Shown here: one piece after another, positions 17,083 through 40,000 of the stretch
How the letters are laid out: each line of letters starts with the position of its first letter
Numbering within the stretch: the stretch's first letter is position 1
Source of the DNA: a virus
Reading direction: 5' to 3' (one strand)
IMG/VR virus record: IMGVR_UViG_3300030060_007423
Location: 62,001 to 126,000 of that record
Length of the DNA stretch: 64,000 bases
Made by a program: the position numbers and the translations under genes
Notes under the pieces: model-generated
Database searches by the model: none
The model's input: only the letters and a program-made list of their open reading frames with translations
What the model was told of the DNA's origin: nothing

Positions 17083-18051
17083 ATGATGAATATTGAAAAC
17101 ATAGGACATAGGTTTACAGAAATTATCAGTACACCTGAATGGAATGATTTACAAGTAAAGTATAATGAGTGCGATGACATTTATGTATTAGGTCATGGTG
17201 GTAATATGGGAGTAGCTGACCACACGGCAGTTGATATGACAAGACTTTCTAATGGTACAAAAAATGCAATGTGCCCTGGAAGTTGTGTAGTTGCAACATC
17301 ATTGATAAATGATACAAGTTTTGATTTATGGATGGTTGCTTGGTTAAAGCAAAGAACTTCAACAAGAACAAAATCACAAATGAAGAAATCATTGGTTTAT
17401 GGAATCTCTTCTTCTGGTAAATCAATTGATGTACTAAAGGCATTACAGTGGGCATCAGATAATGGAATGAAAACATGTTTAGTTACAGCTAATCCAATAG
17501 CTGGTCAAATTAAAGGTCTTACACAAGTAGTATTAGGTGTAGATTATTACCACACAGCAGAATGTTTAAGCTTATTATTACAATATCAACTTACACATGG
17601 TTCTGGAAAAGAATGTCCTCCTATTGGAAAAAATACACCAGCTGAACTTGATAAATTAAATTGGCAAGGTGATAAAATTAGAAAGCATAGTTTTCCAGAT
17701 GAAACAAGAAACATAGGTGTAGACTTTGATGGAGTAATTCATAAAAACAGTAAAGGCTTTTATGATGGAACAGTTTATGATGAACCTATTGAAGGCTCAT
17801 ATGAAGCTCTTGAAAAATTATCAAAAAAGTATGATGTAATAATTTATACAGCAAAGGCAAAACCAGATAGAGGGCTAATAAACGGAAAAACTGGAATTCA
17901 ATTAGTATGGGATTGGCTTAGAGAAAAAGACATGGCAAAATTTGTAACTAAAGTAACATCAGAAAAACCAAGAGCAGTTGCATACATTGATGATAAAGGT
18001 ATAACATTTAAGAATTGGAAACAAACACTTGGGGAAGTAGATGCACTCTAA
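17083..18051 (+). CDS. SIS-domain sugar isomerase fused to HAD domain
   Basis: 322 residues. The N-terminal part (1-185) is a phosphosugar-binding SIS domain: VLGHGGNMGVADHTAVDM resembles GmhA (sedoheptulose-7-phosphate isomerase), and YGISSSGKSIDVLKAL is the SGxS phosphate loop. The C-terminal part starts GVDFDGVIHK (Asp213, Asp215) and continues with IIYTAKAKP, a HAD phosphatase core. The combination would isomerise and then dephosphorylate, or simply channel, a sugar phosphate, perhaps heptose. Confidence 0.75.
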   Translation: MMNIENIGHRFTEIISTPEWNDLQVKYNECDDIYVLGHGGNMGVADHTAVDMTRLSNGTKNAMCPGSCVVATSLINDTSFDLWMVAWLKQRTSTRTKSQMKKSLVYGISSSGKSIDVLKALQWASDNGMKTCLVTANPIAGQIKGLTQVVLGVDYYHTAECLSLLLQYQLTHGSGKECPPIGKNTPAELDKLNWQGDKIRKHSFPDETRNIGVDFDGVIHKNSKGFYDGTVYDEPIEGSYEALEKLSKKYDVIIYTAKAKPDRGLINGKTGIQLVWDWLREKDMAKFVTKVTSEKPRAVAYIDDKGITFKNWKQTLGEVDAL

Positions 18052-18841
18052 AACTAAACAATTAAAAAAGAATATTGGTAAGCATGAGCTTATACCTCTT
18101 AGACTTCGTGAAATGAAAGATTTCTATAAAGATGACACAGCATATATTGTTACTTGTGGTCCATCATTAAATGATATTTCAAAAAAAGAGCTAAAGGAAA
18201 AACTAAAAGATAAGTTAGTGATTGCCAATAAACAAGCATATAATAGTTTAGGAAAAGTTGCAGATTTCCATATTCTCAATATTATAAACTATCAGCCATA
18301 TACTTATGAAAGTGATGAAACTATAAATATATGGGAAGTTTTTGAGCAATTTCATCCACAATTAATATTGGAAAATAAATGGCCATGCCACTTAATGCTT
18401 CCAGTTGTTGGTAATCATATTCCAAACCCTGAAAGAATGGACCAGTCACAAGCTGGTAAATTGAGTTTTGATGATTGGACATTGGACAAAACAATATATA
18501 GACAATTTGGTCCAGGAATGATGTATGAAATAATTTTTCATTTAGCAGTATATTTAGGTGTTAAGAAAATTGTTGTAGTTGGTTGGGATATTGGAGATTT
18601 AAGCCCATATTCTGGTGATGACCCAAATGAAGTTATATTTCACGACCATTGTTATTCAACTGATGAAAATAAATATGGTGAAATAACTGAAGCAAAATGT
18701 GGAATGACATACCGTGAAATGCAAGTTGTTATAGATTCAACAAAATTCTTAAAGGAATGGCTAAACTCTAAAGGAATTGAGTTAGAAATAGTTTCTGATA
18801 AGAGTTCTGCCCACAAATCAATAAAGAGAGTAAAGTTATGA
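18041..18841 (+). CDS. DUF115/GT29-like surface-sugar protein
   Basis: 266 residues. TAYIVTCGPSLNDI near residue 30 is the GPSL loop of DUF115/Maf-type proteins found in nonulosonic-acid transfer loci, and LGVKKIVVVGWDIGDLSPY near residue 178 is the second Rossmann-like strand that sialyltransferase-like enzymes share. A sialic-acid-type transferase or related nucleotide-sugar enzyme is likely. Overlaps its neighbours by 11 and 4 bases. Confidence 0.55.
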   Translation: MHSKTKQLKKNIGKHELIPLRLREMKDFYKDDTAYIVTCGPSLNDISKKELKEKLKDKLVIANKQAYNSLGKVADFHILNIINYQPYTYESDETINIWEVFEQFHPQLILENKWPCHLMLPVVGNHIPNPERMDQSQAGKLSFDDWTLDKTIYRQFGPGMMYEIIFHLAVYLGVKKIVVVGWDIGDLSPYSGDDPNEVIFHDHCYSTDENKYGEITEAKCGMTYREMQVVIDSTKFLKEWLNSKGIELEIVSDKSSAHKSIKRVKL

Positions 18842-19260: not shown

Positions 19261-19906
19261 GACAGTAGTTGTTGTTGGCGGAAGTACAGGTATTGGAAAG
19301 GGAATTGTTGATTCTTTCAAAAATCTTGGTGCTAGGGTTGAATCTATAAGTAGGTCAAATTGTGATATAACTAAAAAAGAAGATATTGATTTCTATTTTT
19401 CAGATATACATGAGGTAGACATACTTATTAACAATGCAGCCATCAATTACTGTAAACCTATTGAAGATATACATTTAGATGAGTGGAAAAGTGTAATAGA
19501 CACAAACCTTACATCATATTTCTATATAATTAAAAAGTGCATTCCATTAATGAAAAGAGGAAGTAAAATAGTAAATGTATCATCAATAGCTGGGAGAAAC
19601 AAGAGCTTGGTAAGTGGTGTACATTATACTTCATCAAAGGCAGGTATTATTGGTTTAACAAGACAGCTTTCACAAGAACTAGGACCAAGAGGTATAAACA
19701 TCAATTGTGTATGCCCAAGCCAAACATTAACACCAATGTTGGAAAGGTCAATGTCCTTAGAAGAATTGGCAAATTTAGAAAGTAAGATTCCATTAAGACG
19801 TGTTGCTGAAGTTGATGAAGTTGTGAAGCCTATATTATTTTTATGCTCTGAAGATGCGTCATATATTCATGGTGCATGTATAGATATAAACGGAGGACAA
19901 TTATGA
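19250..19906 (+). CDS. Short-chain dehydrogenase/reductase
   Basis: 218 residues, classical SDR. GGSTGIGKG near the N-terminus is the NAD(P)-binding loop, INNAAI follows, and the catalytic Ser112, Tyr126 and Lys130 (YTSSK) are intact. The substrate is probably a nucleotide-sugar or sugar intermediate, judging from the neighbours. Starts at 19244 or 19250 are both possible. The stop overlaps the CMP-sugar synthetase start (ATGA). Confidence 0.85.
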   Translation: MKNKTVVVVGGSTGIGKGIVDSFKNLGARVESISRSNCDITKKEDIDFYFSDIHEVDILINNAAINYCKPIEDIHLDEWKSVIDTNLTSYFYIIKKCIPLMKRGSKIVNVSSIAGRNKSLVSGVHYTSSKAGIIGLTRQLSQELGPRGININCVCPSQTLTPMLERSMSLEELANLESKIPLRRVAEVDEVVKPILFLCSEDASYIHGACIDINGGQL

Positions 19907-20634
19907 AAGTAGCGGTTATTATACCAGCAAGATATAAATCAGGAAGATTTCCTGGAAAACCATTGGAAGATATTTTAGGTAAGCCAATGGTTATAAGAGT
20001 TGCAGAAATAGCAGAAAAAGCTGTTGGTAAACAAAATGTTTATGTTGCAACTGATGATTTAAGAATTAAAAATGTTGTTGACGATAGTGGTTATAATGTT
20101 ATTATGACATCTCCTAAACATCCATGTTGTACAGATAGAGTTGCTGAAGCAGCTTATCATTTAGATGCTGATATAATTGTAAATTTACAAGGAGATGAAC
20201 CAATGTTAAATCCTAATGAGATAACTTTGGCAATAAATGCAAAACAACAATACCCTGGGTATGTAATAAATTGTGCAGCAGATTTGCAAGATTTTGAAAA
20301 ACCTGAAAATAGAAACATCATAAAAATGGCAATGGGACTAACCGATAATCTTGTATGTGCATCAAGAAATCCCATACCAGTTGAAAAGTCAGGAAATGCT
20401 CCAATTTGTAAAAAACAAGTATGTATTTATGTTTATAACAAGGAAGAGTTAAAATTGTTTTTAGACCAGGGAACTACTCCTTTAGAAGGTGTAGAAGAAG
20501 TTGATATATTAAGATTTTTAGAAATGGGTGTACCCGTAAAAATAATAAATGTATCTGGAGACTCACATGCAGTTGATGTTCCAGGTGATATTGAAATAGT
20601 TGAAAAACTTTTGAAGGAGAGAGATAATGCATAA
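19903..20634 (+). CDS. CMP-Kdo synthetase-like cytidylyltransferase
   Basis: 244 residues, KdsB family. IIPARYKSGRFPGKPL is the CTP-binding loop, followed by VYVATDD, CCTDRVAEA and VNLQGDEPML, all in the family's order. It activates Kdo or a related acid sugar with CMP. SD GGAGG at 19892 selects the ATG at 19903 over the in-frame upstream ATG. CMP-sugar enzymes here and at 26741 suggest two different acid sugars. Confidence 0.85.
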   Translation: MKVAVIIPARYKSGRFPGKPLEDILGKPMVIRVAEIAEKAVGKQNVYVATDDLRIKNVVDDSGYNVIMTSPKHPCCTDRVAEAAYHLDADIIVNLQGDEPMLNPNEITLAINAKQQYPGYVINCAADLQDFEKPENRNIIKMAMGLTDNLVCASRNPIPVEKSGNAPICKKQVCIYVYNKEELKLFLDQGTTPLEGVEEVDILRFLEMGVPVKIINVSGDSHAVDVPGDIEIVEKLLKERDNA

Positions 20635-21499
20635 GATAACACATTGTATATCGTCATTTAACAATTTGAATTATTTGAAATTGGCTGTAAAGTCAGTTCG
20701 TGAAAATTCATATTATAAAGATTCCCCACTAATTATTCATGCTGAAAATTGCCAAGATGGTACCAATGAATGGCTAGCTGAGAATAGTGAAAAGTGGAAT
20801 TTTGAATATTATGTTGAACAAAATGAAAATCCAATTGGTATTGGTGGTGGAATGAACTTTTGTGCATCAAAGGTAAAAACCGAATTCATTAACTTTTTGC
20901 ATGCTGATTTTTATGTATCAAAAAACTGGGATATTGAATTATTAAATAAATTTGAACAATACCCAGATGACAAATTAATGGTGTTTAGCCAAAGAATACA
21001 ACCAGATATTTTTAATGATAGTGAAAGACCTGGAACTATTTTTGTACCACTAAATGAATTTGGAGAGTATCATCATAATTTTGATGAAAAACATTTTTTA
21101 ACATGGGCAGAAGATTTTACATCAATAAATGATTGGGAAATTGTAAAAACTGAAGGTGTTAGTGGAATGGTAAGAAAACGTGATTGGGATTACATTGGTG
21201 GAAATGATGATAGGTTTGCACCAGCATATTGGGAAGATGCAGACTTATTTATTAGAATGATGAATGAAGGTTATAGATTTGTCTTAACATCAAAATCGTT
21301 AGTTTATCATTTTGCATCAAGAGCATCAAGGTTTCCAGATGATAACTTAAAATCAAGACCAGTTAATTTGGCACAAATAGAACAAAGAAGTTTACAAAGG
21401 TTTGTTGAAAAGTATGGAAAAACACCAGACCTAGATAATAATCAACACTATATAGCAATGCAACCAATAGATGGTTCAAAGAATAGGATAAATCAATGA
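20627..21499 (+). CDS. Glycosyltransferase family 2
   Basis: 290 residues. CISSFNNLNYLKLAVKSV is the first strand and helix; NFLHADFYVSKNWDIEL carries the DxD-like HAD; WEDADLFIRMMNEGY is the ED-type catalytic base region. Overlaps the KdsB-like gene by 8 bases and the Gmd gene by 4. Confidence 0.83.
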   Translation: MHKITHCISSFNNLNYLKLAVKSVRENSYYKDSPLIIHAENCQDGTNEWLAENSEKWNFEYYVEQNENPIGIGGGMNFCASKVKTEFINFLHADFYVSKNWDIELLNKFEQYPDDKLMVFSQRIQPDIFNDSERPGTIFVPLNEFGEYHHNFDEKHFLTWAEDFTSINDWEIVKTEGVSGMVRKRDWDYIGGNDDRFAPAYWEDADLFIRMMNEGYRFVLTSKSLVYHFASRASRFPDDNLKSRPVNLAQIEQRSLQRFVEKYGKTPDLDNNQHYIAMQPIDGSKNRINQ

Positions 21500-22464
21500 A
21501 AAAAACAGCATTAATTACAGGTATTAGTGGAATGGATGGAAGCCATTTGGCAGATTTTTTATTGTCAAAGAATTATGTAGTATATGGCATGGAGAGACGT
21601 TCATCCCATATAAATAATATCAACACATCTCACTTGGACGGAAAAATAACAATATTAACAGGTGATATGACAGACCAAAACTCACTAACAAGATGTCTTA
21701 AGGAATCAAATCCAGATGAAGTTTATAATCTTGCAGCACAATCATTTGTTGGTGAAAGTTGGAATACTCCTGAACAAACAAGCAATGTAACTGGTTTAGG
21801 TGTATTGAGAGTATTGGAGGCAATAAGAGAGTTTAATCCAAAAATTAGATTTTACCAAGCAAGTAGTTCTGAAATGTTTGGAAGAATGGTTGAAAATCCT
21901 GCAAAAGAAACAACTCCGTTTTATCCAAGAAGTCCTTATGGTGTATCAAAGTTATATGGCCATTGGATAACTAAAAACTATAGAGAGTCATATGATATGT
22001 ATGCATGTAGTGGAATACTTTTTAATCATGAAAGTGAAAGAAGAGGTATTGAATTTGTAACAAGAAAAATTTCAGACGGTGTTGCAAAAATACATTTAGG
22101 TTTAGCCAATGATATTACTTTAGGTAATTTAGATGCAGAAAGAGATTGGGGTTATGCACCTGATTATGTTGAAGCAATGTGGCTAATGTTACAACAGGAA
22201 ACTCCAGATGATTATGTTATTGCAACAGGTGAAAAACATTCAATTAAGGATTTTTTAGATGCTGCATTTAATCACGTTGGAATCAGAAAGTGGAAAACAT
22301 ATGTTAAACAAGACCCAAGATTTATGAGACCAGCTGAAGTTGATGTGTTAAGAGGTGATTATAGTAAAGCAAAGAAAGACTTAGGATGGTCACCAAAAAC
22401 TAATTTTGCAGAGTTAGTTGCAAAAATGGTTGATAATGATATAGAATTAAATCGTACAATTTAG
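21496..22464 (+). CDS. gmd: GDP-mannose 4,6-dehydratase
   Basis: 322 residues, extended SDR. TGISGMDGSHLADFL is the NADP-binding loop; VYNLAAQSFVGESWNTP and SSSEMFG are characteristic of GDP-mannose dehydratases, and YGVSKLYGH holds the catalytic Tyr-Lys. The product GDP-4-keto-6-deoxymannose is a precursor of fucose, rhamnose and perosamine. The DegT aminotransferase at 23433 could convert it to perosamine. Confidence 0.9.
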   Translation: MKKTALITGISGMDGSHLADFLLSKNYVVYGMERRSSHINNINTSHLDGKITILTGDMTDQNSLTRCLKESNPDEVYNLAAQSFVGESWNTPEQTSNVTGLGVLRVLEAIREFNPKIRFYQASSSEMFGRMVENPAKETTPFYPRSPYGVSKLYGHWITKNYRESYDMYACSGILFNHESERRGIEFVTRKISDGVAKIHLGLANDITLGNLDAERDWGYAPDYVEAMWLMLQQETPDDYVIATGEKHSIKDFLDAAFNHVGIRKWKTYVKQDPRFMRPAEVDVLRGDYSKAKKDLGWSPKTNFAELVAKMVDNDIELNRTI

Positions 22465-22475
22465 AGGAAATTAAT

Positions 22476-23396
22476 ATGAAAAGAAAATTAAGATTTGTAG
22501 TTTGTGGTTGGTGGTTTGATGAATTTGATAATAAAAAAGGCCAAACGAGTTTTATTGAAGAACTAAAGGAATTTAATGACAAAAATGATTTTGTTGATGT
22601 ATTTTGGACATGTCATAAAACTCCACCAAAATTGATTAAAGATAATTTCAATTGGAAAGAATTTACTAATTTAGGATTGGAGTGGGGAGCTTACGACCAA
22701 GGGTGGAGACATATACAAGCTAATGATGGATTAGAGTCTTTTTCACCAGATGATATTATATTTTTTATGCAAGATGATATATTAATTCATGATTGGTCTT
22801 TTGTAAAAAAATGTATTGATTTAATTGAGTCAGGTGCAAAGGTTATAGGTAATGGTGCAAATTATCCATTATATTTTAATCCTCTTGATATACCACCAAT
22901 TAGTAAAAATTGGATCAATCCAACAAAGAGATGGGTTGATTATATACGTGAAGAAAATCATGATTTAATTGCTGGACCTTTACAGTCAATTTCTGTAAGA
23001 GGAAGCTTTGTTTGTTTAACACATGAATCAATGAGTACAATAGGTGGATTTGATTATGTAGACACACCACTACCAAACCATGCGTTAAGAACAGTACCAA
23101 AAGGTGCACCAGATGCTCATAAACATAATATCATGGTGTATGATAAAACTAAGGTACCTCAAGGAATTAATGTATTAGAAAAGCTTCAACTCACAAATGG
23201 CTTTGGAAATACCACAATGTATCTTAATGCATATAAATTTACAAAAATGCTTGGTGCACATACATTTAAGTATTTATCAGATACATACAGAAAATCGCCA
23301 TATATGACAGAATGTGGAAATGGAATGGTTGAATTACCACAGGAAGGTGGAAGAACTATTAGAATTCCAGTTAATGAAAGTTTTATAGCACGATAA
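22476..23396 (+). CDS. Glycosyltransferase-like protein
   Basis: 306 residues. IIFFMQDDILIHDWSF (about 89-104) gives a QDD metal site of a GT-A enzyme, and GSFVCLTHESMSTIGGFDY resembles the GT2 acceptor region. The N-terminus starts VVCGWWFDEF, atypical for GT2. It ends the unit before the promoter at 23408. Confidence 0.65.
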   Translation: MKRKLRFVVCGWWFDEFDNKKGQTSFIEELKEFNDKNDFVDVFWTCHKTPPKLIKDNFNWKEFTNLGLEWGAYDQGWRHIQANDGLESFSPDDIIFFMQDDILIHDWSFVKKCIDLIESGAKVIGNGANYPLYFNPLDIPPISKNWINPTKRWVDYIREENHDLIAGPLQSISVRGSFVCLTHESMSTIGGFDYVDTPLPNHALRTVPKGAPDAHKHNIMVYDKTKVPQGINVLEKLQLTNGFGNTTMYLNAYKFTKMLGAHTFKYLSDTYRKSPYMTECGNGMVELPQEGGRTIRIPVNESFIAR

Positions 23397-23407
23397 ATTT
23401 TTTATTG

Positions 23408-23432
23408 TCAAAAAAATTAGTTATATTATATT
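23408..23432 (+). promoter_or_regulatory. YCAA-N8-GTTATATT promoter, leaderless
   Basis: TCAA at 23408 and GTTATATT at 23420. The ATG at 23433 lies 13 bases after the G, so the transcript would start on or next to the start codon. It opens the third part of the glycan cluster. Confidence 0.7.
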
Positions 23433-24638
23433 ATGAAAAAAATAAACGTACTAAAACCAAAATTTGAAACTGACAAGATATTAGAACAAATGCGAGAGTG
23501 TTTGGATTCTGGATGGACAGGTATGGGATTCAAAACTGTTGAGTTTGAAGAAAAGTGGAAAGAATATACTCAATTACCTCATGCACACTTCATTGCATCA
23601 AATACTGTAGGACTTCATTTGGCATTAAACCTTTTCAAAAATAAGGATGGTTGGAAAGATGGTGATGAAATAATTACTACTCCTCTTACATTTGTATCAA
23701 CAAACCATGCAATAATGTATGAAAGACTAAAACCAGTATTTGCAGATGTTGATAGTTCAATGTGTTTAGACCCAAAGTCAATTGAAGAAAATATTACTGA
23801 TAAAACAAGAGCTGTTTTATATGTTGGTATTGGTGGAAACACAGGACAATTATTGGAAGTACAGAGAATATGTGAAAAGCATAATGTAAGATTAATTTTA
23901 GATGCAGCTCATATGTCAGGAACTAAAATTAAAAATGTATTTATGGGTGTTGGTTATACAACTGAACATATTGGAAAAGAGGCAGACGTTACTATTTTTA
24001 GTTTTCAAGCTGTAAAGAATTTACCAACAGCAGATAGTGGAATGATATGCTTTAGTGATGAAGAAGACGATAAGCTAGTACGACAACTTTCATGGTTAGG
24101 AATTGATAAAGACACATATTCACGAAGTACTGAAGGTTCATATAAATGGAAATATGATGTACCAAACATTGGATTCAAATATCATGGAAATTCTATAATG
24201 GCATCAATAGGTTTAGTTCAGTTAGATAGGTTAGATGAAGACAATAAGTATAGAAATCAAATTGCAGATTGGTATACTGAATGTTTAACTGATGATTGGG
24301 GAAGACATGATCCTAGATGTATAGAAATCGTAAAAGACGATTTGTATGTTGCAATATCATCAAAACATTTATTTCAAATATTAGTACCAGCTGAGTGTCG
24401 TGACAATTTAATTGAATTATTGTATAGCAATGAAATATATCCAGGTGTACATTATATTGATAACACAAATTATCCAATGTATAGTGATAGTCATGGAAAA
24501 TGTCCAAATGCACATTCATATTCAAAAAGATTAATTACATTACCAATACATTTAGGTATAACTAAAAATGATGTAAAAAGAATATCACAGATTATAAAGG
24601 ATTGTAAATGGTTAGGAGATTGGAAATGGATAGGATAA
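23433..24638 (+). CDS. DegT/DnrJ/EryC1-type sugar aminotransferase
   Basis: 401 residues, PLP-dependent. LDSGWTGMGFKTVEFE at the N-terminus, TTPLTFVSTNHAIMYE and LILDAAH (PLP-binding Asp) are family marks; the Schiff-base lysine is Lys195 in FSFQAVKNLPTADSGM, with Gln where His is usual. It aminates a keto-sugar nucleotide. With Gmd in the preceding unit, GDP-perosamine is a plausible product. No SD: leaderless start. Confidence 0.88.
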   Translation: MKKINVLKPKFETDKILEQMRECLDSGWTGMGFKTVEFEEKWKEYTQLPHAHFIASNTVGLHLALNLFKNKDGWKDGDEIITTPLTFVSTNHAIMYERLKPVFADVDSSMCLDPKSIEENITDKTRAVLYVGIGGNTGQLLEVQRICEKHNVRLILDAAHMSGTKIKNVFMGVGYTTEHIGKEADVTIFSFQAVKNLPTADSGMICFSDEEDDKLVRQLSWLGIDKDTYSRSTEGSYKWKYDVPNIGFKYHGNSIMASIGLVQLDRLDEDNKYRNQIADWYTECLTDDWGRHDPRCIEIVKDDLYVAISSKHLFQILVPAECRDNLIELLYSNEIYPGVHYIDNTNYPMYSDSHGKCPNAHSYSKRLITLPIHLGITKNDVKRISQIIKDCKWLGDWKWIG

Positions 24639-25810: not shown

Positions 25811-25967
25811 ACAAATAGAAAAAAGATTAGATTACCTAAAGACTGAAGTTGTTCATGCACCTAGATTGGATGGTTGGACTCTAAATGGCCATAGGGAAGA
25901 AATTAAAAAGTTAATACAGGAACTAAAAGAAATACAGGAGAAAACTGATGACAAAGATAATAGCTGA
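25797..25967 (+). CDS. Small coiled-coil protein (56 aa)
   Basis: Start ATG at 25797 overlaps the glycosyltransferase end by 14 bases and the stop overlaps NeuB by 20. The sequence is charged and helical (KQIEKRLDYL, REEIKKLIQELKEIQEK). It fills the gap between the two genes. No function known; possibly a partner or assembly factor. Confidence 0.6.
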   Translation: MSRIKQIEKRLDYLKTEVVHAPRLDGWTLNGHREEIKKLIQELKEIQEKTDDKDNS

Positions 25968-26748
25968 AATAGGTTGGAATCATATGGGCGATATGAAACT
26001 TGCTAAAGAAATGATTAAGGCTGCAAAGGATTCTGGTGCAGATTTTGCAAAGTTTCAAACGTGGTCTGTTGATAGATTAAAGCCAGGACCTTGGAATGAA
26101 GATGGAAGAATTGATATATACAAGAAAGCAGAATTGACTCGTGAAAATCATGAAGAGTTAATATCATATTGTAATGAAGTTGGAATTGAATTTATGTCAT
26201 CAGTATTTAGTATTGCAGACGCACAATTACTTGTTGATTTAGATATTAAGACTGTTAAGATTCCAAGTATGGAATGTAGAAATGTTGAACTTGTTAAGTT
26301 TTGCAATGAACACTTTGAATCTATTTATATGTCAACAGGTGCATCAACATTAAAAGAGGTATGTGATAGTGTTGATTTGATTGATAAGCCATTATTTTTA
26401 ATGCATTGTGTATCGTCATACCCATGTGAAATTGAAAATGCAAACTTAAATAAGATTTTTGGACTAAAGGGAATATGTCCTACTGTTGGATATAGTGATC
26501 ACTGTTTAGGTACAGACGTTGCAAAGTATGCTATAGAATATGGAATAAATGTTGTTGAAAAACATTTTACAACAGATACTTCACTTCCGGGTAGAGACAA
26601 CCAATTTGCAATAACTCCACCAGAATTAAAAAATCTTAAACAGTGGATTGACAATAAATCTCTTGCACAACAATATGTTGCACGTGATTATTTACCAGTT
26701 GAAGAAGAAGTAAGAAAAGTTTATCATGGAAGATTTAACAATGAATAA
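25948..26748 (+). CDS. neuB: Nonulosonic acid (sialic acid-type) synthase, NeuB-like, lacking SAF domain
   Basis: 266 residues, TIM barrel of the NeuB family: IAEIGWNHMGDMKLAKEM, DFAKFQTW, FMSSVFS, VKIPSMEC, MSTGAS, LMHCVSSYP, GYSDHCLG and VEKHFTTD, all in order. It condenses phosphoenolpyruvate with an N-acetylated sugar to a nine-carbon acid. Usual length is about 340 with a C-terminal antifreeze-like SAF domain; here the protein stops at the end of the barrel, with only about 25 residues of tail. SD CAGGAG precedes the start. Confidence 0.88.
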   Translation: MTKIIAEIGWNHMGDMKLAKEMIKAAKDSGADFAKFQTWSVDRLKPGPWNEDGRIDIYKKAELTRENHEELISYCNEVGIEFMSSVFSIADAQLLVDLDIKTVKIPSMECRNVELVKFCNEHFESIYMSTGASTLKEVCDSVDLIDKPLFLMHCVSSYPCEIENANLNKIFGLKGICPTVGYSDHCLGTDVAKYAIEYGINVVEKHFTTDTSLPGRDNQFAITPPELKNLKQWIDNKSLAQQYVARDYLPVEEEVRKVYHGRFNNE

Positions 26749-27445
26749 TAAAAACATATTAGGTGTAACATTGGCACGTGGTGGTTCAAAGGGTATACCA
26801 AAAAAGAACATATACCCAGTCAATGGAAAGCCACTAATATCATATACGATTGAAGCAGCATTAAAAACAAAACTTTTTAGTCCGTACATTGTAAGTACAG
26901 ATTCACAAGAAATTGCAGATGTTGCTGAAAGCTATGGTGCACAAATACCGTTCTTAAGACCAGACGAATTATCTGGTGATACGGTTTGGTCAAGAGATGC
27001 ACTAAAGCATGCAGTTTTAGAATGTGAAAGAATTTATAATACAACATATGACTGGGTTGTAGAATTACCATGTGTATCACCATTAAGAAACAGTCAACAT
27101 ATTTTTGATGCTATTAATATATTAACAACAGGTGAGTATGATAGTGTTACTTCAGTTGCACAAATGCAAGACAAACACCCAGTTAGAATGAAAAGAATTG
27201 TTGATGGAATGTTAAAAGATTTCTGTAAGGAATTTCCAGAAGGTGAAGGTAGTAGGCGACAAGACTTAGAACCATGTTATATTAGAAATGGTGCAATATA
27301 TGCAATGACTCGTGATTGTATTGTAAATGATTTTTCAAGACATGGCAAAAAATGTTATGCATTTGTAATGGATGATGATTCATCTATAAATGTTGATACA
27401 ATGCATGACTTAAAACTTGCAGAAATAATTTTAGGGAGTAAGTAA
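26741..27445 (+). CDS. neuA: CMP-nonulosonate (sialate) cytidylyltransferase, NeuA-like
   Basis: About 234 residues. TLARGGSKGIPKKNIYP is the CTP-binding signature of CMP-NeuAc synthetases; VVELPCVSPLRN and NVDTMHDLKLAE match the family's mid and C-terminal parts. It activates the product of the adjacent synthase with CMP for transfer. Overlaps NeuB by 8 bases; the start at 26741 is preferred to 26726. Confidence 0.88.
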   Translation: MNNKNILGVTLARGGSKGIPKKNIYPVNGKPLISYTIEAALKTKLFSPYIVSTDSQEIADVAESYGAQIPFLRPDELSGDTVWSRDALKHAVLECERIYNTTYDWVVELPCVSPLRNSQHIFDAINILTTGEYDSVTSVAQMQDKHPVRMKRIVDGMLKDFCKEFPEGEGSRRQDLEPCYIRNGAIYAMTRDCIVNDFSRHGKKCYAFVMDDDSSINVDTMHDLKLAEIILGSK

Positions 27446-28347
27446 TGAATGTAATAATAGATTGTCCTACTGATTTTTTATCTTTGAAAGCTTTTATGAA
27501 AAAGCACAATATTAGTGAATCTGAAGACCCGGATTGTATCATAGTCAATCCAGGAACTGACGAGTATCTAGATGAAAAATATTTTTCTAATTTTGAAAAC
27601 TTAAAGGTTGTAGGAACACCATCAACAGGTGTTAATCACATTGATACAAAATATTTAGAGGGTAGGAACATAAAAACATTTTGTTTACTTGATGATAGAA
27701 TTGGTTTAGAATCAATAACAGCTTCAGCAGAATTTACATGGCTACATATAATGAATGCATTTAGAAAATTTAATCTTGCATTGGAATATGTTGGTGATTG
27801 GAGGGATGATGAAAATGAACACTTTTTAAGGTCAAATGAATTAAGTGGAAAAAACATATTAATTATTGGTCTAGGTAGAATTGGTAGAAAGATTAAGAAA
27901 TATGCAAATGCATTTGAAATGAATGTTGATTGGTATGACCCATACATTGATGTTACATCAAAAAACCATATTGGTTCTCTTAGGGATTTATCCAAATATG
28001 ATGTAATATCAATAAACTGTTACTTAACAGATGAAACTACTGGAATGATAGATAAGAGACTTTTATCAACTACAAAAAGTAATGCACTTATTGTAAATAC
28101 ATCAAGAGGTGAAGTTGTTAAGGAAGATGATATTTGTACACTTATTAAAAATGGAAAAATTATTTATAGTTGTGATGTTCTATGTAATGAACAAAATGTT
28201 GAAAAATTAAAAGAATCTGAACTATTCAAATTAAATGGACAATATGATAATTTAACAATCACACCACATGTAGCTGGTGCAACTATTGAAAGTCAAACAA
28301 AGGCATTGGAGTCAATTATAAAGTTATGCAAAAAATACTTATCATAG
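27445..28347 (+). CDS. D-2-hydroxyacid dehydrogenase family protein
   Basis: 300 residues. NILIIGLGRIGRKIKKYA is the NAD-binding GxGxxG; VNTSRGEVVKEDDI and TPHVAGAT (catalytic His region) follow in family order. The N-terminal half VVGTPSTGVNHID is the substrate domain. It probably reduces or oxidises a 2-keto or hydroxy acid in the nonulosonate or glycan pathway; the substrate cannot be told from sequence. Confidence 0.85.
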   Translation: MNVIIDCPTDFLSLKAFMKKHNISESEDPDCIIVNPGTDEYLDEKYFSNFENLKVVGTPSTGVNHIDTKYLEGRNIKTFCLLDDRIGLESITASAEFTWLHIMNAFRKFNLALEYVGDWRDDENEHFLRSNELSGKNILIIGLGRIGRKIKKYANAFEMNVDWYDPYIDVTSKNHIGSLRDLSKYDVISINCYLTDETTGMIDKRLLSTTKSNALIVNTSRGEVVKEDDICTLIKNGKIIYSCDVLCNEQNVEKLKESELFKLNGQYDNLTITPHVAGATIESQTKALESIIKLCKKYLS

Positions 28348-28958
28348 GAAATTCGCCAAGAGTACTAACTCAAAAATTTGGTAAAATAATAGATACTGAA
28401 TTTGATGAAGTTGTAAGGGTAAATAGATTTAAGACAGATGGATTTGAAGAATTTATTGGTGAACGTGTTGATACTTGGTCATTAAGTGATGAGTGGGTAT
28501 ATGATTATATGGATAAGCCATATAATTTAACACCAAGAGATATTAGTAACATTAACAAATTAATAATATCTACACCAGGTTTCAAATATGAATATGTAAC
28601 AGATAATCTTAAATTAGATTTTCAAGCATTTAAGAAATCTTTACCTTCTGTAGTAATTAAAAAAAATGTTGAAGAAAGAATTAATTCAATTTTAGATATT
28701 AATATGTCACCTGATGGACCTTGGGCAACTACTGGTTTATTAACTATTCAGTGGGCAATTGATAATTATGATGATGTTTATATTCATGGCTTTGACTGTT
28801 ATTTTACACATGAAAACATGCATTACTTTGAAGACAATAGAAAAAGTGATAGGGTATTTACAGGAAAAGAACATGACCCAGAAAAAGAAAAGCATTATCT
28901 TGACTTATTAATAAAGACAGGACAAATAAAGACGATTGAAAATGAATACAGTATTTAA
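28326..28958 (+). CDS. GT29-like sialyltransferase
   Basis: 210 residues with the sialylmotif layout of family GT29: IIGNSP and DEVVRVNRFKTDG then GERVDTW (motif L), PWATTGLLTIQWA (motif S), IHGFDCYFTHENMHYFE (motif III-like), and HDPEKEKHYLDLLIKTGQI (motif VS, with catalytic-type His). It would transfer a CMP-activated nonulosonic acid to an acceptor. Its position directly behind neuB and neuA supports this. GT29 is best known from eukaryotes but related bacterial and phage sequences exist. Confidence 0.75.
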   Translation: MQKILIIGNSPRVLTQKFGKIIDTEFDEVVRVNRFKTDGFEEFIGERVDTWSLSDEWVYDYMDKPYNLTPRDISNINKLIISTPGFKYEYVTDNLKLDFQAFKKSLPSVVIKKNVEERINSILDINMSPDGPWATTGLLTIQWAIDNYDDVYIHGFDCYFTHENMHYFEDNRKSDRVFTGKEHDPEKEKHYLDLLIKTGQIKTIENEYSI

Positions 28959-29613
28959 CAAAGATTATTTCAAAAATAGAAATTGCAACGATGATAAAAG
29001 AATGTTAGCATTTGAATCAGAGTTTGATTTTGTGATTAAACATACTGGTAGAAATCCAGGTGCATTATTAGATGTTGGATGTTCAACTGGTGAAATGATT
29101 AAATTTTGGAAAGGTATGGGACTTGAAACAAAGTTATGTTATGGTATGGAAATTTCAGACCATGCAAAAAGTGTTGCAAAAAAGAATGGCGTAAAATTCA
29201 ATAAACATCTTTTTAATTCAAAAGACTATTTTTCAACTATAGTTTTTAGAGGTACTATTCAACATGTAGATACTCCATTTCTTTATATGAAAAAAGCATA
29301 TGAATCATTAAATAAAGGTGGAAAGGTTGTTTTCTTAGCAACTCCTAATGCAAATAGTTTATATTTTAAGTTATGGAAAACACTTCCATTTCTTGATTAC
29401 CCAGAAACAAATTATTATATACCATCTGATGTTTGGTTAGAGCAAGCAATGAAAAATTTTGGATTTAAGTTGGTTGAAAAGCGATACCCATATATTGATT
29501 CACCATATTCTAATCCAATAGTTGACCACATAAAGTTTTACTTAAAGCTTTTTGGTGTTAATGTTAAATTTCCATTTTGGAGAAATAGCATGGATTTAAT
29601 ATTCGAGAAATAA
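28942..29613 (+). CDS. SAM-dependent methyltransferase (class I)
   Basis: 223 residues. LLDVGCSTGEMIKFW is the SAM-binding motif I; FRGTIQHVDTPFLYMKKA is the motif IV region of UbiG-like enzymes; KGGKVVFLATPN is the following strand. Likely methylates a sugar or acid sugar. An in-frame TTG at 28936 is less convincing than the ATG at 28942. Overlaps the upstream gene by 17 bases. Confidence 0.82.
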   Translation: MNTVFNKDYFKNRNCNDDKRMLAFESEFDFVIKHTGRNPGALLDVGCSTGEMIKFWKGMGLETKLCYGMEISDHAKSVAKKNGVKFNKHLFNSKDYFSTIVFRGTIQHVDTPFLYMKKAYESLNKGGKVVFLATPNANSLYFKLWKTLPFLDYPETNYYIPSDVWLEQAMKNFGFKLVEKRYPYIDSPYSNPIVDHIKFYLKLFGVNVKFPFWRNSMDLIFEK

Positions 29614-29615
29614 TT

Positions 29616-30926
29616 ATGCTAAAATTAATCAATGAATTATATCCAATATGCAGAAGTATTACTGGTGAAGGATTAAGAAAGTCACTTAAAATCATTTCAT
29701 CAAAGTTTAATACTAAAATGCAAATACACTCAGTACCATCAGGAACAGAAGTGTTTGATTGGGTTGTTCCAAATGAATGGAATATTCGTGATGCATGGGT
29801 AAAAGACCCGTTTGGAAATAAGATTATTGATTTTAACGATAGCAATTTACATGTCATGGGATATAGTGAACCTATTGATAAACATTTATCATGGAAAGAG
29901 CTTGATAAAAAACTTTATTGTGGAATTATGCCAAAGAGAATACCATATAGAACTTCATATTATAAGAGAGACTGGGGATTTTGTACAGGATTGCAAATGC
30001 CAGATTGGGAAGGCACACAATCAGGTTTAGTTGGAAAGACTGGAAAATACAAGGACTTAAAAGAATCTGATTGCAAATACCATGCATACATTGATTCAAC
30101 ACTGGAACCAGGACATCTTAATTATGGTGAAGTTGTAATTCCAGGAAAGTCTAATCAAGAAATATTATTTAGTACATATTTGTGTCATCCATCAATGTGT
30201 AATGACAATTTAAGTGGACCTGCAATACATACTAAATTAATTAAGAAGTTAGAAAGAACAGAAAATTTCTATACATATAGATTTATATTCATACCTGAAA
30301 CTATTGGTGCAATATGTTGGTTACATAAAAACCAAAAGGATTTAAGTAAATATGTTGGTGGCTTTGTGACTACTTGTGCAGGTGATGATGGACCTGTAAC
30401 ATATAAAAAGACAAGAAGTGGCTCAATTATAGATGATGTAGTACAATATGTTTTAGATGATTATGATTATTCATATATTAGAGATTACTCACCGTTAGGT
30501 AGTGATGAAAGACAATTTAGTTCACCAGGTTTTGACATGCCTATAGGTACACTTATGAGAACACCACCAGGTGAATTTTCAGAGTATCACAATTCTGATG
30601 ATAATATTGATTTTATATCAGAAGAGAAATTAAATGAAATTTATAGCATTTATTCAAAAATTATAGTTATATTAGAAAAAGATTATAGGTATCTATCATC
30701 AAACCTACGGTGTGAACCTAATTTTGGAAAGAGGGATTTATACAATAGGGTTGGTGCAACAACATTGGAAGATGATATTAAAGCATATAAGTGGATAATG
30801 AATTACTCAGATGGACATCATACATTATTTGATATTGCAAAACTAAGTAACTTTAGTTTTACTCAAATTTTAAGTTGTTCAGAAACGTTAGAAAAAAAGG
30901 GATTGATAACAAAATGTATAAAATAA
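29616..30926 (+). CDS. DUF4910 aminopeptidase-like protein
   Basis: 436 residues. YPICRSITGEGLRKSL, then VPSGTEVFDWVVPNEWNI and NLHVMGYSEPI match DUF4910/DUF2172 proteins of the M28 aminopeptidase type found in surface-sugar loci. FSTYLCHPSMCNDNLSGP gives the metal-binding His-Asp-type region, IPETIGA the acidic residue. A short helical C-terminal domain of winged-helix type (DIAKLSNFSFTQILSCSETL) follows. Proposed role: removal of an acyl or amino group from a sugar intermediate; unproven. Confidence 0.75.
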   Translation: MLKLINELYPICRSITGEGLRKSLKIISSKFNTKMQIHSVPSGTEVFDWVVPNEWNIRDAWVKDPFGNKIIDFNDSNLHVMGYSEPIDKHLSWKELDKKLYCGIMPKRIPYRTSYYKRDWGFCTGLQMPDWEGTQSGLVGKTGKYKDLKESDCKYHAYIDSTLEPGHLNYGEVVIPGKSNQEILFSTYLCHPSMCNDNLSGPAIHTKLIKKLERTENFYTYRFIFIPETIGAICWLHKNQKDLSKYVGGFVTTCAGDDGPVTYKKTRSGSIIDDVVQYVLDDYDYSYIRDYSPLGSDERQFSSPGFDMPIGTLMRTPPGEFSEYHNSDDNIDFISEEKLNEIYSIYSKIIVILEKDYRYLSSNLRCEPNFGKRDLYNRVGATTLEDDIKAYKWIMNYSDGHHTLFDIAKLSNFSFTQILSCSETLEKKGLITKCIK

Positions 30927-31594
30927 CAGTTGCTATTTGTTGCTATAAGCAAAAAGATTGGTTACATAGATGTTTAAGAAGTTTATCTTCCCAAACAATA
31001 CCAAAGAATGATTTTGAAGTTGTCATAGTGAATGATGACCCATGTGAAAGATTAGATTATATTTGTGATAACTTTAAGGATTTCATAAATATTAGATTAA
31101 TCAATAACGAAGAAAATTTAGGATTACCTAAATCACTAAATAAAATATTGTCAGCATCTTTAGGAAAATATTTTGTTAGGGTTGATAGTGATGATTATGT
31201 ATCAAGTGATTTTTTGTATATGCTATCAACATTTTTAGATATAAACCTATCTGCAAGTCCAAGGGTGTCAGGTGAAGATACTTTCTATCAAGGAGTAGCT
31301 TGTGACTATTTTAAGGTTGGACCTACAGGTGAAGTACTTAGCAGACATTCATCTGAAAAAGAACCTGTTGCTTGTGGAATAATGTTTACATATGAATCAT
31401 TATGTGAAATAGGATTTTATGATGAAAACTTTAAGATGAGAGAAGGTCATGATTTACTAAGTAGATTTAACAAATCATATAAGATTTACAATTTACCTGT
31501 ACCATTATATAAGTATAGAATGCATGACAATAATAGAACAAATAATACTACTGAAGTTAAGAAGTATGATAAAAAATTAGGAGTAAATATATGA
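30914..31594 (+). CDS. Glycosyltransferase family 2
   Basis: 226 residues. KITVAICCYKQKDWLHRCL and the QTIPKNDFEVVIVNDD strand are the GT2 N-terminus; FVRVDSDDYV (about 85-94) is the DxDD metal site. The ATG at 30914 is chosen because residues before it belong to a shadow of the upstream gene; it overlaps that gene by 13 bases. Confidence 0.85.
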   Translation: MYKITVAICCYKQKDWLHRCLRSLSSQTIPKNDFEVVIVNDDPCERLDYICDNFKDFINIRLINNEENLGLPKSLNKILSASLGKYFVRVDSDDYVSSDFLYMLSTFLDINLSASPRVSGEDTFYQGVACDYFKVGPTGEVLSRHSSEKEPVACGIMFTYESLCEIGFYDENFKMREGHDLLSRFNKSYKIYNLPVPLYKYRMHDNNRTNNTTEVKKYDKKLGVNI

Positions 31595-32493
31595 AAGTAT
31601 TAGTAACAGGAGGAGCTGGATTTATTGGTTCAAATCTAGTCGACAGATTAATTGATAAAGGCCATGATGTAACAATTATTGACAATATGTCAACAGGCCA
31701 TGAAAAGAATATAAACAAAAAAGCAAAGTTTGTACTTTGTGACATGTTTTCAGATATTAAATTACTTGAAGAATCCATGAAAGGTATTGAAGTTGTTTTT
31801 CATTTAGCCGCATTAGCAAGAGTACAACCATCAATTGAAAATCCATTACCTTTTAATGATGCAAATATTACAGGTACATTAAATGTATTGTTTGCTGCAC
31901 ATAAGGCAGGTGTAAGACGTGTAGTATATAGTGCAAGTAGTTCAGCTTATGGAGATGCAGAAAGAATGCCTCAACTGGAAACTGACTCTACAAATCCACT
32001 ATCACCTTATGGGTTACAAAAGTTTGTTGGTGAACAGTACTGTAAAATGTTTAGTGAAGTTTATGGGTTAGATACATGCTCTCTTAGATACTTTAATGTG
32101 TATGGTGAAAGAATGAATTTTGAAGGAGCATATAAAACAGTTGTTGCAGTATTTACTGAACAGTCACTAAATGGTGAAAAGTTAAATATTGTAAATGATG
32201 GTGAACAAAGAAGAGACTTTACATATGTTGGTGATGTATGCCAAGCCAATATACTTGCAGGTTTACATACTGATAGATTAGAAGGTAATGTATTTAATAT
32301 TGGAAACGGTGATAACTTTTCAGTTAATGAATTGGCTAAAATGTTTGAACGACCAGTTAAGTATGGTGAAAAAAGAATTGAACCATTTGAAACTTTAGCA
32401 GATAATACAAAAGCAAGAAATGTTTTAGGTTGGAATCCAACTGGTGATTTACCAAATTGGATAAAAAATTATCGTAATGAATTAGGAATATGA
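31591..32493 (+). CDS. NAD-dependent nucleotide-sugar epimerase/dehydratase
   Basis: 300 residues, extended SDR of the GalE type. MKVLVTGGAGFIGSNLVDRL is the NAD-binding loop; VFHLAALARVQPS, SASSSAYGD and YGLQKFVGEQY (catalytic Tyr-Lys) follow. C-4 or C-5 epimerisation of a UDP- or dTDP-sugar is likely. Overlaps both neighbours by 4 bases. Confidence 0.88.
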   Translation: MKVLVTGGAGFIGSNLVDRLIDKGHDVTIIDNMSTGHEKNINKKAKFVLCDMFSDIKLLEESMKGIEVVFHLAALARVQPSIENPLPFNDANITGTLNVLFAAHKAGVRRVVYSASSSAYGDAERMPQLETDSTNPLSPYGLQKFVGEQYCKMFSEVYGLDTCSLRYFNVYGERMNFEGAYKTVVAVFTEQSLNGEKLNIVNDGEQRRDFTYVGDVCQANILAGLHTDRLEGNVFNIGNGDNFSVNELAKMFERPVKYGEKRIEPFETLADNTKARNVLGWNPTGDLPNWIKNYRNELGI

Positions 32494-33209
32494 AAAATAT
32501 AGCAATTATAGGATTAGGCGAAATAGGTTCATCTCTTTATGAAGTTTATAAGGCCAAAGGTATTATACCACAGACACGTGATGTAGATGGAGATATAACT
32601 GGCGATATAGATATTTTAGATATTTGTATTCCAGGACAATTACCAGATTTTGTTGATGTGGTTAATAATTATGTTGAACAATATAATGCAAAGATTGTAA
32701 TTATTCATTCAACAGTACCTGTAGGTACAACTGAAAAAATAAAAAATGCTGTACATTCTCCAGTTAGAGGTGTACACCCAAACCTTAAACAAGGTATTGA
32801 AACATTTTACAAATTTATAGGTCATAATGATTATTCGTTGGGCGAACAAGTTGCTGAACACTACAAGTCTTTAGGTATAAATTATGCTCTTTGGCCAGAT
32901 TCAAAGTCAACTGAATTAGCAAAGCTTTTGAGTACAACATATTATGGACTTTGTATTGCTTGGCATGGTGAAATGAATAAGATGTGTGAAAAGTATGGTG
33001 TAGGAATGGATACTATAGATGAATGGACAGAAACATACAATGAAGGTTATAAAGATCTTGACATGCCTCATGTTGTAAGACCTCAATTGTATGCACCAGG
33101 AAAAGGTGGAATTGGTGGCCATTGTGTAATATCAAATGTTGATATTTTAAGTAAAGATAATAATTCATTAGCATTGGATTTAATTAAAAAGTATAGACCT
33201 AAAAAATGA
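32490..33209 (+). CDS. Shortened UDP-sugar dehydrogenase-like protein
   Basis: 239 residues. IAIIGLGEIGSSLYEVY binds NAD; IIHSTVPVGTTEKI and GKGGIGGHCVIS are marks of nucleotide-sugar 6-dehydrogenases (Ugd/WecC). Usual length is about 420: the C-terminal UDP-binding domain is missing, and the catalytic Cys lies in GGHCV near residue 211. It could be a reduced enzyme of the same reaction or one acting on a smaller substrate. Overlaps both neighbours by 4 bases. Confidence 0.65.
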   Translation: MKNIAIIGLGEIGSSLYEVYKAKGIIPQTRDVDGDITGDIDILDICIPGQLPDFVDVVNNYVEQYNAKIVIIHSTVPVGTTEKIKNAVHSPVRGVHPNLKQGIETFYKFIGHNDYSLGEQVAEHYKSLGINYALWPDSKSTELAKLLSTTYYGLCIAWHGEMNKMCEKYGVGMDTIDEWTETYNEGYKDLDMPHVVRPQLYAPGKGGIGGHCVISNVDILSKDNNSLALDLIKKYRPKK

Positions 33210-36895: not shown

Positions 36896-37045
36896 ATGAT
36901 AAATTGGATAAACGGCTTTGATGCCGGAAATAAAAAAGAAAAGTACTACATTGAATTTAGAGTAGGTACTTTTACAGTATTAGAAATGAAGTGGGAATCT
37001 AAGAAATTTAGATTTATGATATTTAATTTGGGATTTGAAATATGA
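36896..37045 (+). CDS. Small hypothetical protein (49 aa)
   Basis: Strong SD AAGGAG 8 bases before the ATG at 36896 and an ATGA overlap with the next gene. Sequence INWINGFDAGNKKEKYYIEF with a beta-rich end. No family. Confidence 0.55.
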   Translation: MINWINGFDAGNKKEKYYIEFRVGTFTVLEMKWESKKFRFMIFNLGFEI

Positions 37046-40000
37046 AAAAGTTATTATTTTTATTGCTATTATTACCATCGGTTATATTAGCACAAAACAG
37101 TTGGATAAACATACAATTATTAACAGATGACTATCCAGAAGAAACTTCTTGGACTATAACACCTCCAGGTGGTTCTCCAATTATTGCTCAGTCTGATTCT
37201 ATAATGACAGACTTAACATTATATGATACAACAATTGCTGTAGGTGGAACTATAGTTGTTAATTTATACGACGAGTATGGAGATGGTTTAGGTGGATTTA
37301 ATGGTTCACCAGAAGGTTGGTTTTTAATTCAAAATGATTGTCAAGATACATTATTATATGTGGCAGGAGATTTTGGAGCTTTATATACTGACACTTTAAC
37401 AATAGCACCTTGTGCACCTCCAGTATCTGGATGTACTGATGTAAATGCTACCAATTATGATTCACTCGCCACAGCCGATGATGGTTCTTGTACCTATCCT
37501 CCATGTGGCGGTTTAGTTTTTAGTAATGCATATCAACAATGTCAACCAAATGGTCAAGCATTGGCTATATTTGAATGGGAAACAGATGCATACAATCCAA
37601 CTTGTGAAGTAGTCAAAGTATGGATTAGCAATGAAAACGGTTTAGGACCATTACAGTTTCCAGGTTCATGGCCATCAGGAGGACCTCATAACTTTGCATT
37701 TAATGCAGGTCCAGGACAAATGCCACCAAATTGGTCAGAAGAGTTTTATTGTCAAGTAGAATTTGCAGATGGTTCATTATCAGATACTATTGCATACACA
37801 CCAACACCATGTATTCCAGGTTGTACTGACCCAACACAAATAGCATATAATCCTTGGGCTACAATAGATGATGGTTCATGTAGTGGAACAACTTGTGACA
37901 CAAATACACAATATCAAATATCCATTTCAATAACATTAGATAATTGGCCAGGTGAAACAAGCTGGCAATTTGTTGATGGTTTAGGTAATACATTTGACTA
38001 TCCAGTAGGAACATATGATTTTAATGATATAGGACAAACTTATACTTACGCATTCTGTGTAGACCAAAATGCAGCTTTTGAAATGATTATCAATGATGAT
38101 TATGGTGATGGTATGGCTGGTTCAACATCAGGTGGAACAATGGATGGTGAAATTTTTATATATGATTGTTCAGGAGATACTATTTGGTATATGGACAATC
38201 CTGGTTTTGGAACTGTATTATATTCAGGTCCACAAACAGCAACACCTTGTCCTACTATTCCAGTAATAGACGGATGTACAGATGATGATTATGTTGAGTT
38301 TAATCCTCAAGCAAATAATGATGATGGTAGTTGCTTAACATTACATACTTACGGTTGTACAGACCCAGCAGCGTTTAACTATGATCCTTCAGCAACTATG
38401 ATGGACTTAACACCAGATTGTAATTACGAACTATGGATTGGAGATGCTGGCGGTGATGGTTGGGGTAATTCATTTATAGGTGTATATCAAAATGGTATTA
38501 ATCTTGGAACATATACAATGGGACCAGGTAATTATCAACAAACCTTTAATGTAATTTTAGACCCAGGAGTTCCAGTAGAAGTATTTTATTTTGAAGTAGG
38601 TGGACCACAACAACCACCAGAAGAGGTACAATTTCAAACTTGGCATAATTCATTTAAGTTAACAAATGCAGATGGTGTTGAACTAATGTATGAAGGACAG
38701 AATCCATTTGCAAATAATGGTCAAGGAGCACTTCAAGGATTTGGAGCACCATTCTTTACAAAATATGTAGCAGTTCCATTTTGTGGAAATACTTGTATTC
38801 CAACAGTATTGGGTTGTATGGACTCATTATCTGTAAACTTTGACCCAAATGCAAATGTAGATGATGGTTCTTGTATTCCTGAAATTTTAGGATGTACTAA
38901 CCTTTTAGCATTTAACTATGACCCAAATGCAACTTTGGATGATGGTTCATGTATTCCAGTTGTAAATGGATGTATGGATTCATTGGCATATAATTTTAAT
39001 CCTTTAGCTAATACACCAGATGGAAGTTGTGTATTTTTAGGATGTACAGATAATTTAGCTTGTAATTATGATGCAATTGCAAATGTAGATAATGGAGGTT
39101 GTACTTACCCAGCTCAATATTACGATTGTTATGGAGCATGTATAAATGATACTGATGGTGATGGTGTTTGTGATGAGTTGGAAGTTTTAGGATGTACGGA
39201 TCCATTATCAACTAATTTTAATCCTGCAGCTACAGATGACGATGGTACTTGTATACCAATTATTTATGGATGTACTGACCCAACAATGTATAACTATAGT
39301 GTAACTGCTAATACAGATGATGGTAGTTGTGTACCGTACATTTATGGATGTACTGACCCAACAATGTTTAATTATGATGTAACTGCAAACACTGACGATG
39401 GTACATGTATACCTATTGTTATTGGTTGTATGGATGTAACTATGTGGAACTATGATCCTTTAGCTAACACATCATCAGGAAATTGTATTCCATTCATATA
39501 TGGTTGTATGGACCCAACGATGTTTAATTATGATCCGTTGGCGAATACAGATAATGGTACATGTGAGCCATTTGTTTATGGATGTACTGACCAAACTGCA
39601 CTTAACTTTAACCCATTAGCAAATACTTTAGATAATAGTTGTTGTTATATTGCAGGATGTACTGACGCATCAGCACTTAATTATGATCCAGACGCATGTT
39701 ATGATGACAATTCATGTATAACAATTGTAACAGGTTGTACTGATGTAACGGCTTACAACTATAACCCAGCTGCAAATGTTTCAGATTCAAGTTGTTTATA
39801 TGATGCAGGTTGTTATGGTGGACCAGGAGTTCCATATTGGTTGAATGATGGATGTTATGCTTGGGTAATTGATGTTGATGATTATTGTTGTACAAATGAT
39901 TGGGATGTAAACTGTCAATCAATGTATGATTATTGTGAACAAGGTTGGCCAGTGTCAACTGAAGAATTATCTGGTTCAGGTACAATATTGGTATATCCAA

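Follow-up and report, generated by a model that had tools for sequence, protein, structure and literature searches.

A probable phage-encoded cassette for a sialic-acid-like sugar, including a GT29-family glycosyltransferase

Can a bacteriophage carry the enzymes to synthesize, activate and transfer a sialic-acid-like sugar? The question is raised by a locus within a 64,000-nucleotide stretch of viral DNA, here called the window (positions 62,001 to 126,000 of IMG/VR record IMGVR_UViG_3300030060_007423), which is part of a 170,801-base record, possibly a fragment, of a marine virus of bacteria. A preliminary description of the window had read four consecutive genes as a synthase, a cytidine monophosphate (CMP) transferase, a dehydrogenase and a sialyltransferase-like protein, and this order is borne out by the positions of the open reading frames (ORFs) and by their Pfam matches (Table 1). 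The four ORFs are complete and lie in one run on the plus strand (25948-28958), each overlapping or abutting the next. We conclude, with a probability of about 0.72, that the phage carries them as a working cassette for a sialic-acid-like acid, either nonulosonic or closely related ulosonic.

The transfer step of such a cassette would fall to the protein encoded at 28326. Its PF00777 score of 46.3 bits is twice the curated cut-off (23), and the same profile has no match in any of 14 well-known prokaryote genomes; therefore a chance match can be excluded. The protein aligns along its length with porcine ST3Gal1, and motifs L, S and VS, which had been placed in it earlier, can all be located, together with motif III. 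When positions are numbered against human ST3Gal1 residues (PMC6884586), motif L comprises G8-N9-S10 and R31-x-N33, in which N9, S10 and N33 correspond to N147, S148 and N170 of the human enzyme; motif S lies around T135-T136-G137; motif III, H166-Y167-F168-E169, corresponds to H299-Y300-x-E302; and motif VS, H183-x4-E188, corresponds to H316-x4-E321. Human ST3Gal1 is inactive when H299, Y300 or H316 is changed to alanine (PMC6884586).

The fold of this protein had been named beforehand as a point on which the reading could fail, and the predicted structure gives a GT29/GT42 sialyltransferase fold. An AlphaFold model built from ten aligned viral sequences has a predicted local distance difference test score (pLDDT) of 74.4 and a predicted template modelling score of 0.79. 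All 46 Foldseek matches in the PDB at E<=0.001 are sialyltransferases, nearly all of them GT29, ahead of GT42. The first-ranked matches are GT29 structures (E 1.1e-8, template modelling score 0.66 on query length, probability 1.00), and the next match after these 46 has E 0.04 and probability 0.16. The phage protein shares with ST3Gal1, ST8Sia3, ST6GalNAc2 and ST6Gal1 this fold, the four motifs, the donor-site residues N9, S10 and N33 and the catalytic positions H166 and H183. It differs from eukaryotic GT29 proteins in that it has only 210 amino acids, no transmembrane anchor that we could see and no stem, and is encoded by a phage.

The synthase at the head of the run is 32% identical to Neisseria NeuB, which is also the best PDB match of its AlphaFold2 model (2wqp, E 2.1e-24; pLDDT 96). 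Neisseria NeuB and PseI head the structure matches, with the synthase of Kdo8P, the phosphate of 3-deoxy-D-manno-octulosonate (Kdo), far behind. The TIM barrel and the residues of the phosphoenolpyruvate (PEP) and metal sites, shared by NeuB and PseI synthases, are retained: E7, K104, E109, S183, H185, H206 and D217 align with E25, K129, E134, S213, H215, H236 and D247 of Neisseria NeuB, residues that we take to serve in metal binding, PEP binding and catalysis. An inactive NeuB had been the other outcome held to speak against the pathway; the fold and catalytic residues are kept, and the ratio of nonsynonymous to synonymous substitution rates (dN/dS) is 0.07. The protein differs from known NeuB and PseI synthases in lacking the SAF (antifreeze-like) domain, in a serine at the position of N184, in a conserved Gly-Arg tail and in a linked dehydrogenase. 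The missing domain is not a truncation, because relatives in viral and bacterial genomes share the length (about 263-284 amino acids across the clade) and have a conserved Gly-Arg-Phe/Trp tail at the C-terminus. In a quick tree of 113 NeuBs, made without bootstrap, the window protein falls into a supported clade of 39 (SH-aLRT 98), in which these SAF-less, Gly-Arg-tailed proteins mix viral contigs with Pelagibacteraceae (SAR11), Prochlorococcus, SAR86, Flavobacteriaceae and others. A second SAF-less clade (about 270-290 amino acids), mostly viral and without the dehydrogenase, occurs at many loci among L044-L092.

The putative activating enzyme is closer to NeuA/PseF than to KdsB, scoring 149.6 bits with the PseF model TIGR03584 against 27-44 bits with KdsB models, and its best PDB match is the CMP-N-acetylneuraminic acid (Neu5Ac) synthetase 6ifd (E 2.1e-32). 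Its ORF opens at 26726, and the start of its ortholog is the equivalent of 26741.

The third gene encodes a D-2-hydroxyacid dehydrogenase (HADH), whose nearest PDB structure is 1wwk and which is a real, conserved partner of the SAF-less NeuB clade. The dehydrogenase lies within 7 kb of NeuB at 33 of 50 loci with a tail-bearing NeuB, against 3 of 119 other loci, the three exceptions being L038 (a fragment in which the NeuB end is missing), the basal L128, and L190 (Fisher p 3.5e-19, a description rather than a test, since the loci are related). A Prochlorococcus genome (L116) shares the order NeuB-NeuA-HADH with the window, and the order NeuB-GT2-NeuA-HADH is found in SAR11, SAR86 and a Bacteroidetes genome (L117, L118, L120). 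Operons with a SAF-less NeuB, NeuA and the dehydrogenase, often with a GT2 gene between, were noted at L116, L117, L118, L120, L124 and L128, in Prochlorococcus, SAR11, Bacteroidetes, SAR86, Desulfobacterales and Omnitrophota. At L128 (Omnitrophota; a basal NeuB relative, 38% identity) a UDP-GlcNAc 2-epimerase of NeuC type lies beside NeuA and HADH. A gene of the mandelate racemase/muconate lactonizing (MR/MLE) type, of the enolase superfamily, was seen near a SAF-less NeuB at L109 (4015-5142) and L122 (3687-4295), with Pfam applied to these neighbour genes at L109 only. The viral contig L190 (5301-9357) carries a run NeuA-HADH-GT2-dehydrogenase-epimerase that is close to the window (HADH 53% identical) and has no GT29 gene; GT2 and epimerase genes come after NeuA-HADH there as they do in the window, and comparison of the two arrangements suggests cassette exchange.

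The reading of NeuB, CMP-sugar synthetase and GT29 as one pathway is supported by the recurrence of the same neighborhood in other phages and in bacteria. These loci were reached through NeuB relatives and a PF00777 search, the alignments A1 and A4 being too diverse for pattern scans; a pattern scan with alignment A5 gave one weak locus, and single-protein GT29 scans of IMG/VR, GTDB contigs, INPHARED and plasmids gave just one near copy. PF00777 matches occur in 10 of the 50 viral records that had been selected by their NeuB, in about seven independent lineages by our count, and all ten GT29 loci lie near NeuB (0-5 kb), often with an abutting NeuA-type gene. Two of them (L014 and L017) have the order GT29-NeuA-HADH-NeuB, a rearranged version of the same module. 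GT29 is found with NeuBs of at least three lineages (the tail clade, the second SAF-less viral clade and the long type), and therefore the pairing probably arose more than once. Among bacterial genomes searched for GT29 regardless of NeuB, matches were found in 4 of 397 Pelagibacterales, none of 400 from the Prochlorococcus family and 1 of 400 Flavobacteriaceae, and each of the five proteins is encoded in an island that also holds NeuB and a NeuA-type gene. NeuB is present in 51 of 78 sampled Pelagibacterales (65%), so co-occurrence within a genome says little and adjacency says more. An unannotated record of a huge phage (LR756508 of INPHARED; L004 9247-14068) shows a SAF-less NeuB surrounded by at least four GT29 genes.

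Measured against one related phage contig (L003), dN/dS is 0.07 for NeuB and for NeuA, 0.155 for the dehydrogenase and 0.10 for GT29, within a range of 0.02-0.17 across all 16 genes tested. These values indicate purifying selection and a module whose function is maintained. Near NeuB relatives do exist in marine bacteria, as would be expected if the genes were passenger host DNA without function in the phage; we regard this as highly improbable in view of the selection on all 16 genes, the absence of any broken ORF in the module and its recurrence in more than twenty viral contigs.

A number of observations weigh against a working cassette for a sialic-acid-like acid. The GT29 protein is divergent in sequence (its 46 bits compare with 94-112 in LR756508), its model is of moderate confidence only (pLDDT 74), and long branches in the GT29 tree leave the phage protein as a deep, unplaced lineage. 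In NeuB, S156 replaces N184 of the Neisseria enzyme, and the absent C-terminal SAF domain carries Arg314 in Neisseria, a residue that positions the N-acetyl group of N-acetylmannosamine (ManNAc) and whose change to alanine (R314A) abolishes activity (PMC6795526). The tail arginine might conceivably take over from Arg314, which is only an idea. Both NeuB (NnaB 206.4 against 399.65, PseI 164.4 against 340.25) and the NeuA-type protein (TIGR03584 149.6 against 205.7) fall below NCBIfam equivalog cut-offs, and part of the NeuB shortfall arises because the SAF domain is missing. Enzymes for the early steps had gone unseen in the window, and a search of the whole 170.8 kb record likewise finds no NeuC homolog (PF02350; the Pse and Leg early enzymes were not each searched), the same search being positive in 11 of the 14 control genomes; the precursors would therefore be the host's. 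Finally, gene proximity inside a glycan island counts for less than it seems to, as genes of this kind cluster anyway.

With regard to substrates, order of steps, target and benefit, we infer a route in which NeuB would condense PEP with a host-supplied aldose, the NeuA-type enzyme would activate the product with cytidine triphosphate to give a CMP-sugar, and GT29 would transfer the sugar by an inverting mechanism, with H183 as the base, to a glycan made by the host and by other phage glycosyltransferases. The gene context supports a CMP-ulosonate as the likely donor of the 28326 protein, and the product would presumably have nine carbons. The dehydrogenase probably makes or tailors a substituent or an intermediate of the sugar, the exact step being a guess. 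In this way the virus would probably repaint the surface of the host cell (or of itself), and the likeliest outcome would be an altered host cell-surface polysaccharide that blocks adsorption of competing phages.

The identity of the sugar is where alternatives have the most room. Since the SAF domain with its essential Arg314 is absent, the enzyme may take an acceptor other than ManNAc and could form some other ulosonic acid. Taken further, the SAF-less NeuB might use an acceptor that has no N-acetyl group and yield a 2-keto-3-deoxy acid other than a nonulosonate, with the dehydrogenase in a new route and GT29 transferring the new sugar. The absence of the residue that places the N-acetyl of ManNAc (PMC6795526), the clade's own Gly-Arg tail and fixed dehydrogenase partner, and the MR/MLE-type gene nearby in two loci are all in keeping with this possibility, which we nevertheless consider unlikely: in structure the protein comes nearest to Neisseria NeuB and PseI, with Kdo8P synthase far behind, and L128, with its NeuC-type epimerase, NeuA and HADH, suggests ManNAc and Neu5Ac at least there. 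An improbable variant separates the two ends of the module, making GT29 a Kdo-type transferase that uses CMP-Kdo (or a Kdo-like sugar) from the KdsB-type enzyme, while the NeuB product goes elsewhere. The KdsB-type gene passes its curated cut-offs and is located 7.7 kb upstream of GT29 within the glycan cluster that holds both, and the plant GT29 protein RCKT1 has been proposed as a CMP-Kdo transferase (PMC11288761). However, NeuA is nearer than KdsB to GT29 in the window, at every other locus where a cytidylyltransferase was seen next to or near GT29 it is of the NeuA type, not the KdsB type, and nothing resembling KdsA was seen among the genes, albeit with no search by the KdsA family itself.

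The target is a separate matter. Glycosylation of virions by phages is known, and the large cluster with its many glycosyltransferases would suit a sugar that decorates the virion and not the host surface; we rather doubt this, as the homologous modules are bacterial surface-polysaccharide genes and no tail or capsid gene adjoins. If the sugar of the phage cassette does belong to cell surfaces, its reach may be wide. The SAF-less, Gly-Arg-tailed NeuB, the CMP-sugar synthetase and the dehydrogenase could, as we tentatively suggest while thinking it less than an even chance, make up the center of an acid-sugar pathway with CMP activation, so far undescribed, that is widespread in surface polysaccharides of abundant marine bacteria and has been captured by phages, with GT29 in some lineages. 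SAF-less NeuB and the dehydrogenase occur together in SAR11, Prochlorococcus, SAR86, Bacteroidota and viruses; therefore the sugar may be a common and as yet undescribed constituent of the surfaces of marine bacteria, and one that phages remodel.

For EpaA and EpaB of Acinetobacter prophages it has been proven that phage enzymes can modify capsular nonulosonic acids (PMC12053666); these two likewise change host-surface acid sugars but act on an existing host nonulosonate, whereas the window module carries synthase, activation and transfer. T4-like pelagimyophages are also marine phages with sugar-gene clusters, and their glycosyltransferases are believed to modify the O-chains of the host; the paper on them makes no mention of genes for sialic acid or NeuB (PMC7029224). 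Bacterial GT29 was reported in 2018 as 23 sequences, 19 of them alphaproteobacterial, without function, gene context or mention of viruses (PMC5811610). Those proteins are single-domain like the phage protein, and the bacterial GT29 proteins found here lie in NeuB/NeuA islands. Our literature search, with subscription journals mostly outside it, returned no report of a phage GT29, a phage NeuB, or a SAF-less NeuB with a dehydrogenase partner. GT29, the animal sialyltransferase family, is here tied in phages and bacteria to enzymes that make and activate the expected donor, and the prokaryotic GT29 family therefore gains a testable function.

Judged from its gene content, the record appears to come from a T4-like myovirus: tail sheath-like, PhoH-like and baseplate-like genes are visible among the ORFs, and DNA polymerase and ATP-dependent ligase genes are also present. 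Two proteins bear on the host. A 1049-amino-acid protein (37042-40191) begins like a signal peptide, contains GCTD...NYNP...DDGSC repeats and carries, at its C-terminus, a type A sorting domain of the type IX secretion system (PF18962, TIGR04183; 40.6 bits, cut-off 23), and is thus a phage protein apparently exported by this system, which belongs to Bacteroidota. A full-length phage GroEL (544 amino acids, 6086-7720) is nearest to Flavobacteriaceae among 12 genomes (56%, others 49-54%) and agrees weakly with Bacteroidota. These sequence features point to a Bacteroidota bacterium as the host.

Table 1. Predicted genes of the four-gene module and of the glycan cluster around it
Feature	Position	Strand	Length and profile matches
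KdsB-type CMP-Kdo synthetase	19876..20634	+	NF003952 230.6 bits (cut-off 193); NF009905 255.1 (cut-off 255)
GDP-mannose 4,6-dehydratase (GMD, 21496), a glycosyltransferase, DegT aminotransferase (23433)	21496..24638	+	TIGR01472 430.6 (cut-off 415); DegT PF01041
neuB-like, SAF-less ulosonate synthase, C-terminal G261-R262 tail	25948..26748	+	266 aa; PF03102, 201 bits, E 2.4e-59
NeuA/PseF-type CMP-ulosonate synthetase	ORF 26726..27445; probable gene 26741..27445	+	ORF 239 aa; PF02348 (CTP_transf_3), 72 bits
NAD-type D-2-hydroxyacid dehydrogenase (HADH)	27445..28347	+	300 aa; PF02826 (2-Hacid_dh_C), 123 bits, E 1.3e-35
GT29 glycosyltransferase, single domain	28326..28958	+	210 aa; PF00777 (Glyco_transf_29), 46.3 bits, E 4.8e-12
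Methyltransferase, next gene in run after GT29	28936..29613	+	PF13489
DUF4910/DUF2172/HTH_47 protein	29616..30926	+	PF16254, E 2.4e-94
GT2, NAD-dependent epimerase, UDP-glucose/GDP-mannose dehydrogenase-like genes	30875..33209	+	profile matches

Around the module extends a glycan cluster of some 22 kb (roughly 11124-33209), which also includes GT2 and GT4-like transferases, sugar dehydrogenases and a sulfotransferase (PF03567, 15488-16129). The GMD and DegT genes were considered as Pse/Leg precursor genes and rejected: GMD passes the GDP-mannose dehydratase cut-off, and DegT, at 205.5 with the PseC model, is below the cut-off of 423.5. Together with the glycosyltransferase between them they would rather form a separate GDP-sugar branch that does not feed NeuB. 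The T4-like late promoter TATAAATA is barely enriched, and none lies directly upstream of the module on the plus strand. A DUF115/MptE-like protein (18041-18841; 31.3 bits, below the cut-off) has relatives near NeuB in the viral contigs L058, L062, L070 and L090; its superfamily is that of the Maf flagellin glycosyltransferases, which use nonulosonates. Elsewhere in the window, a C-5 cytosine DNA methylase (PF00145) is encoded at 749-1972.

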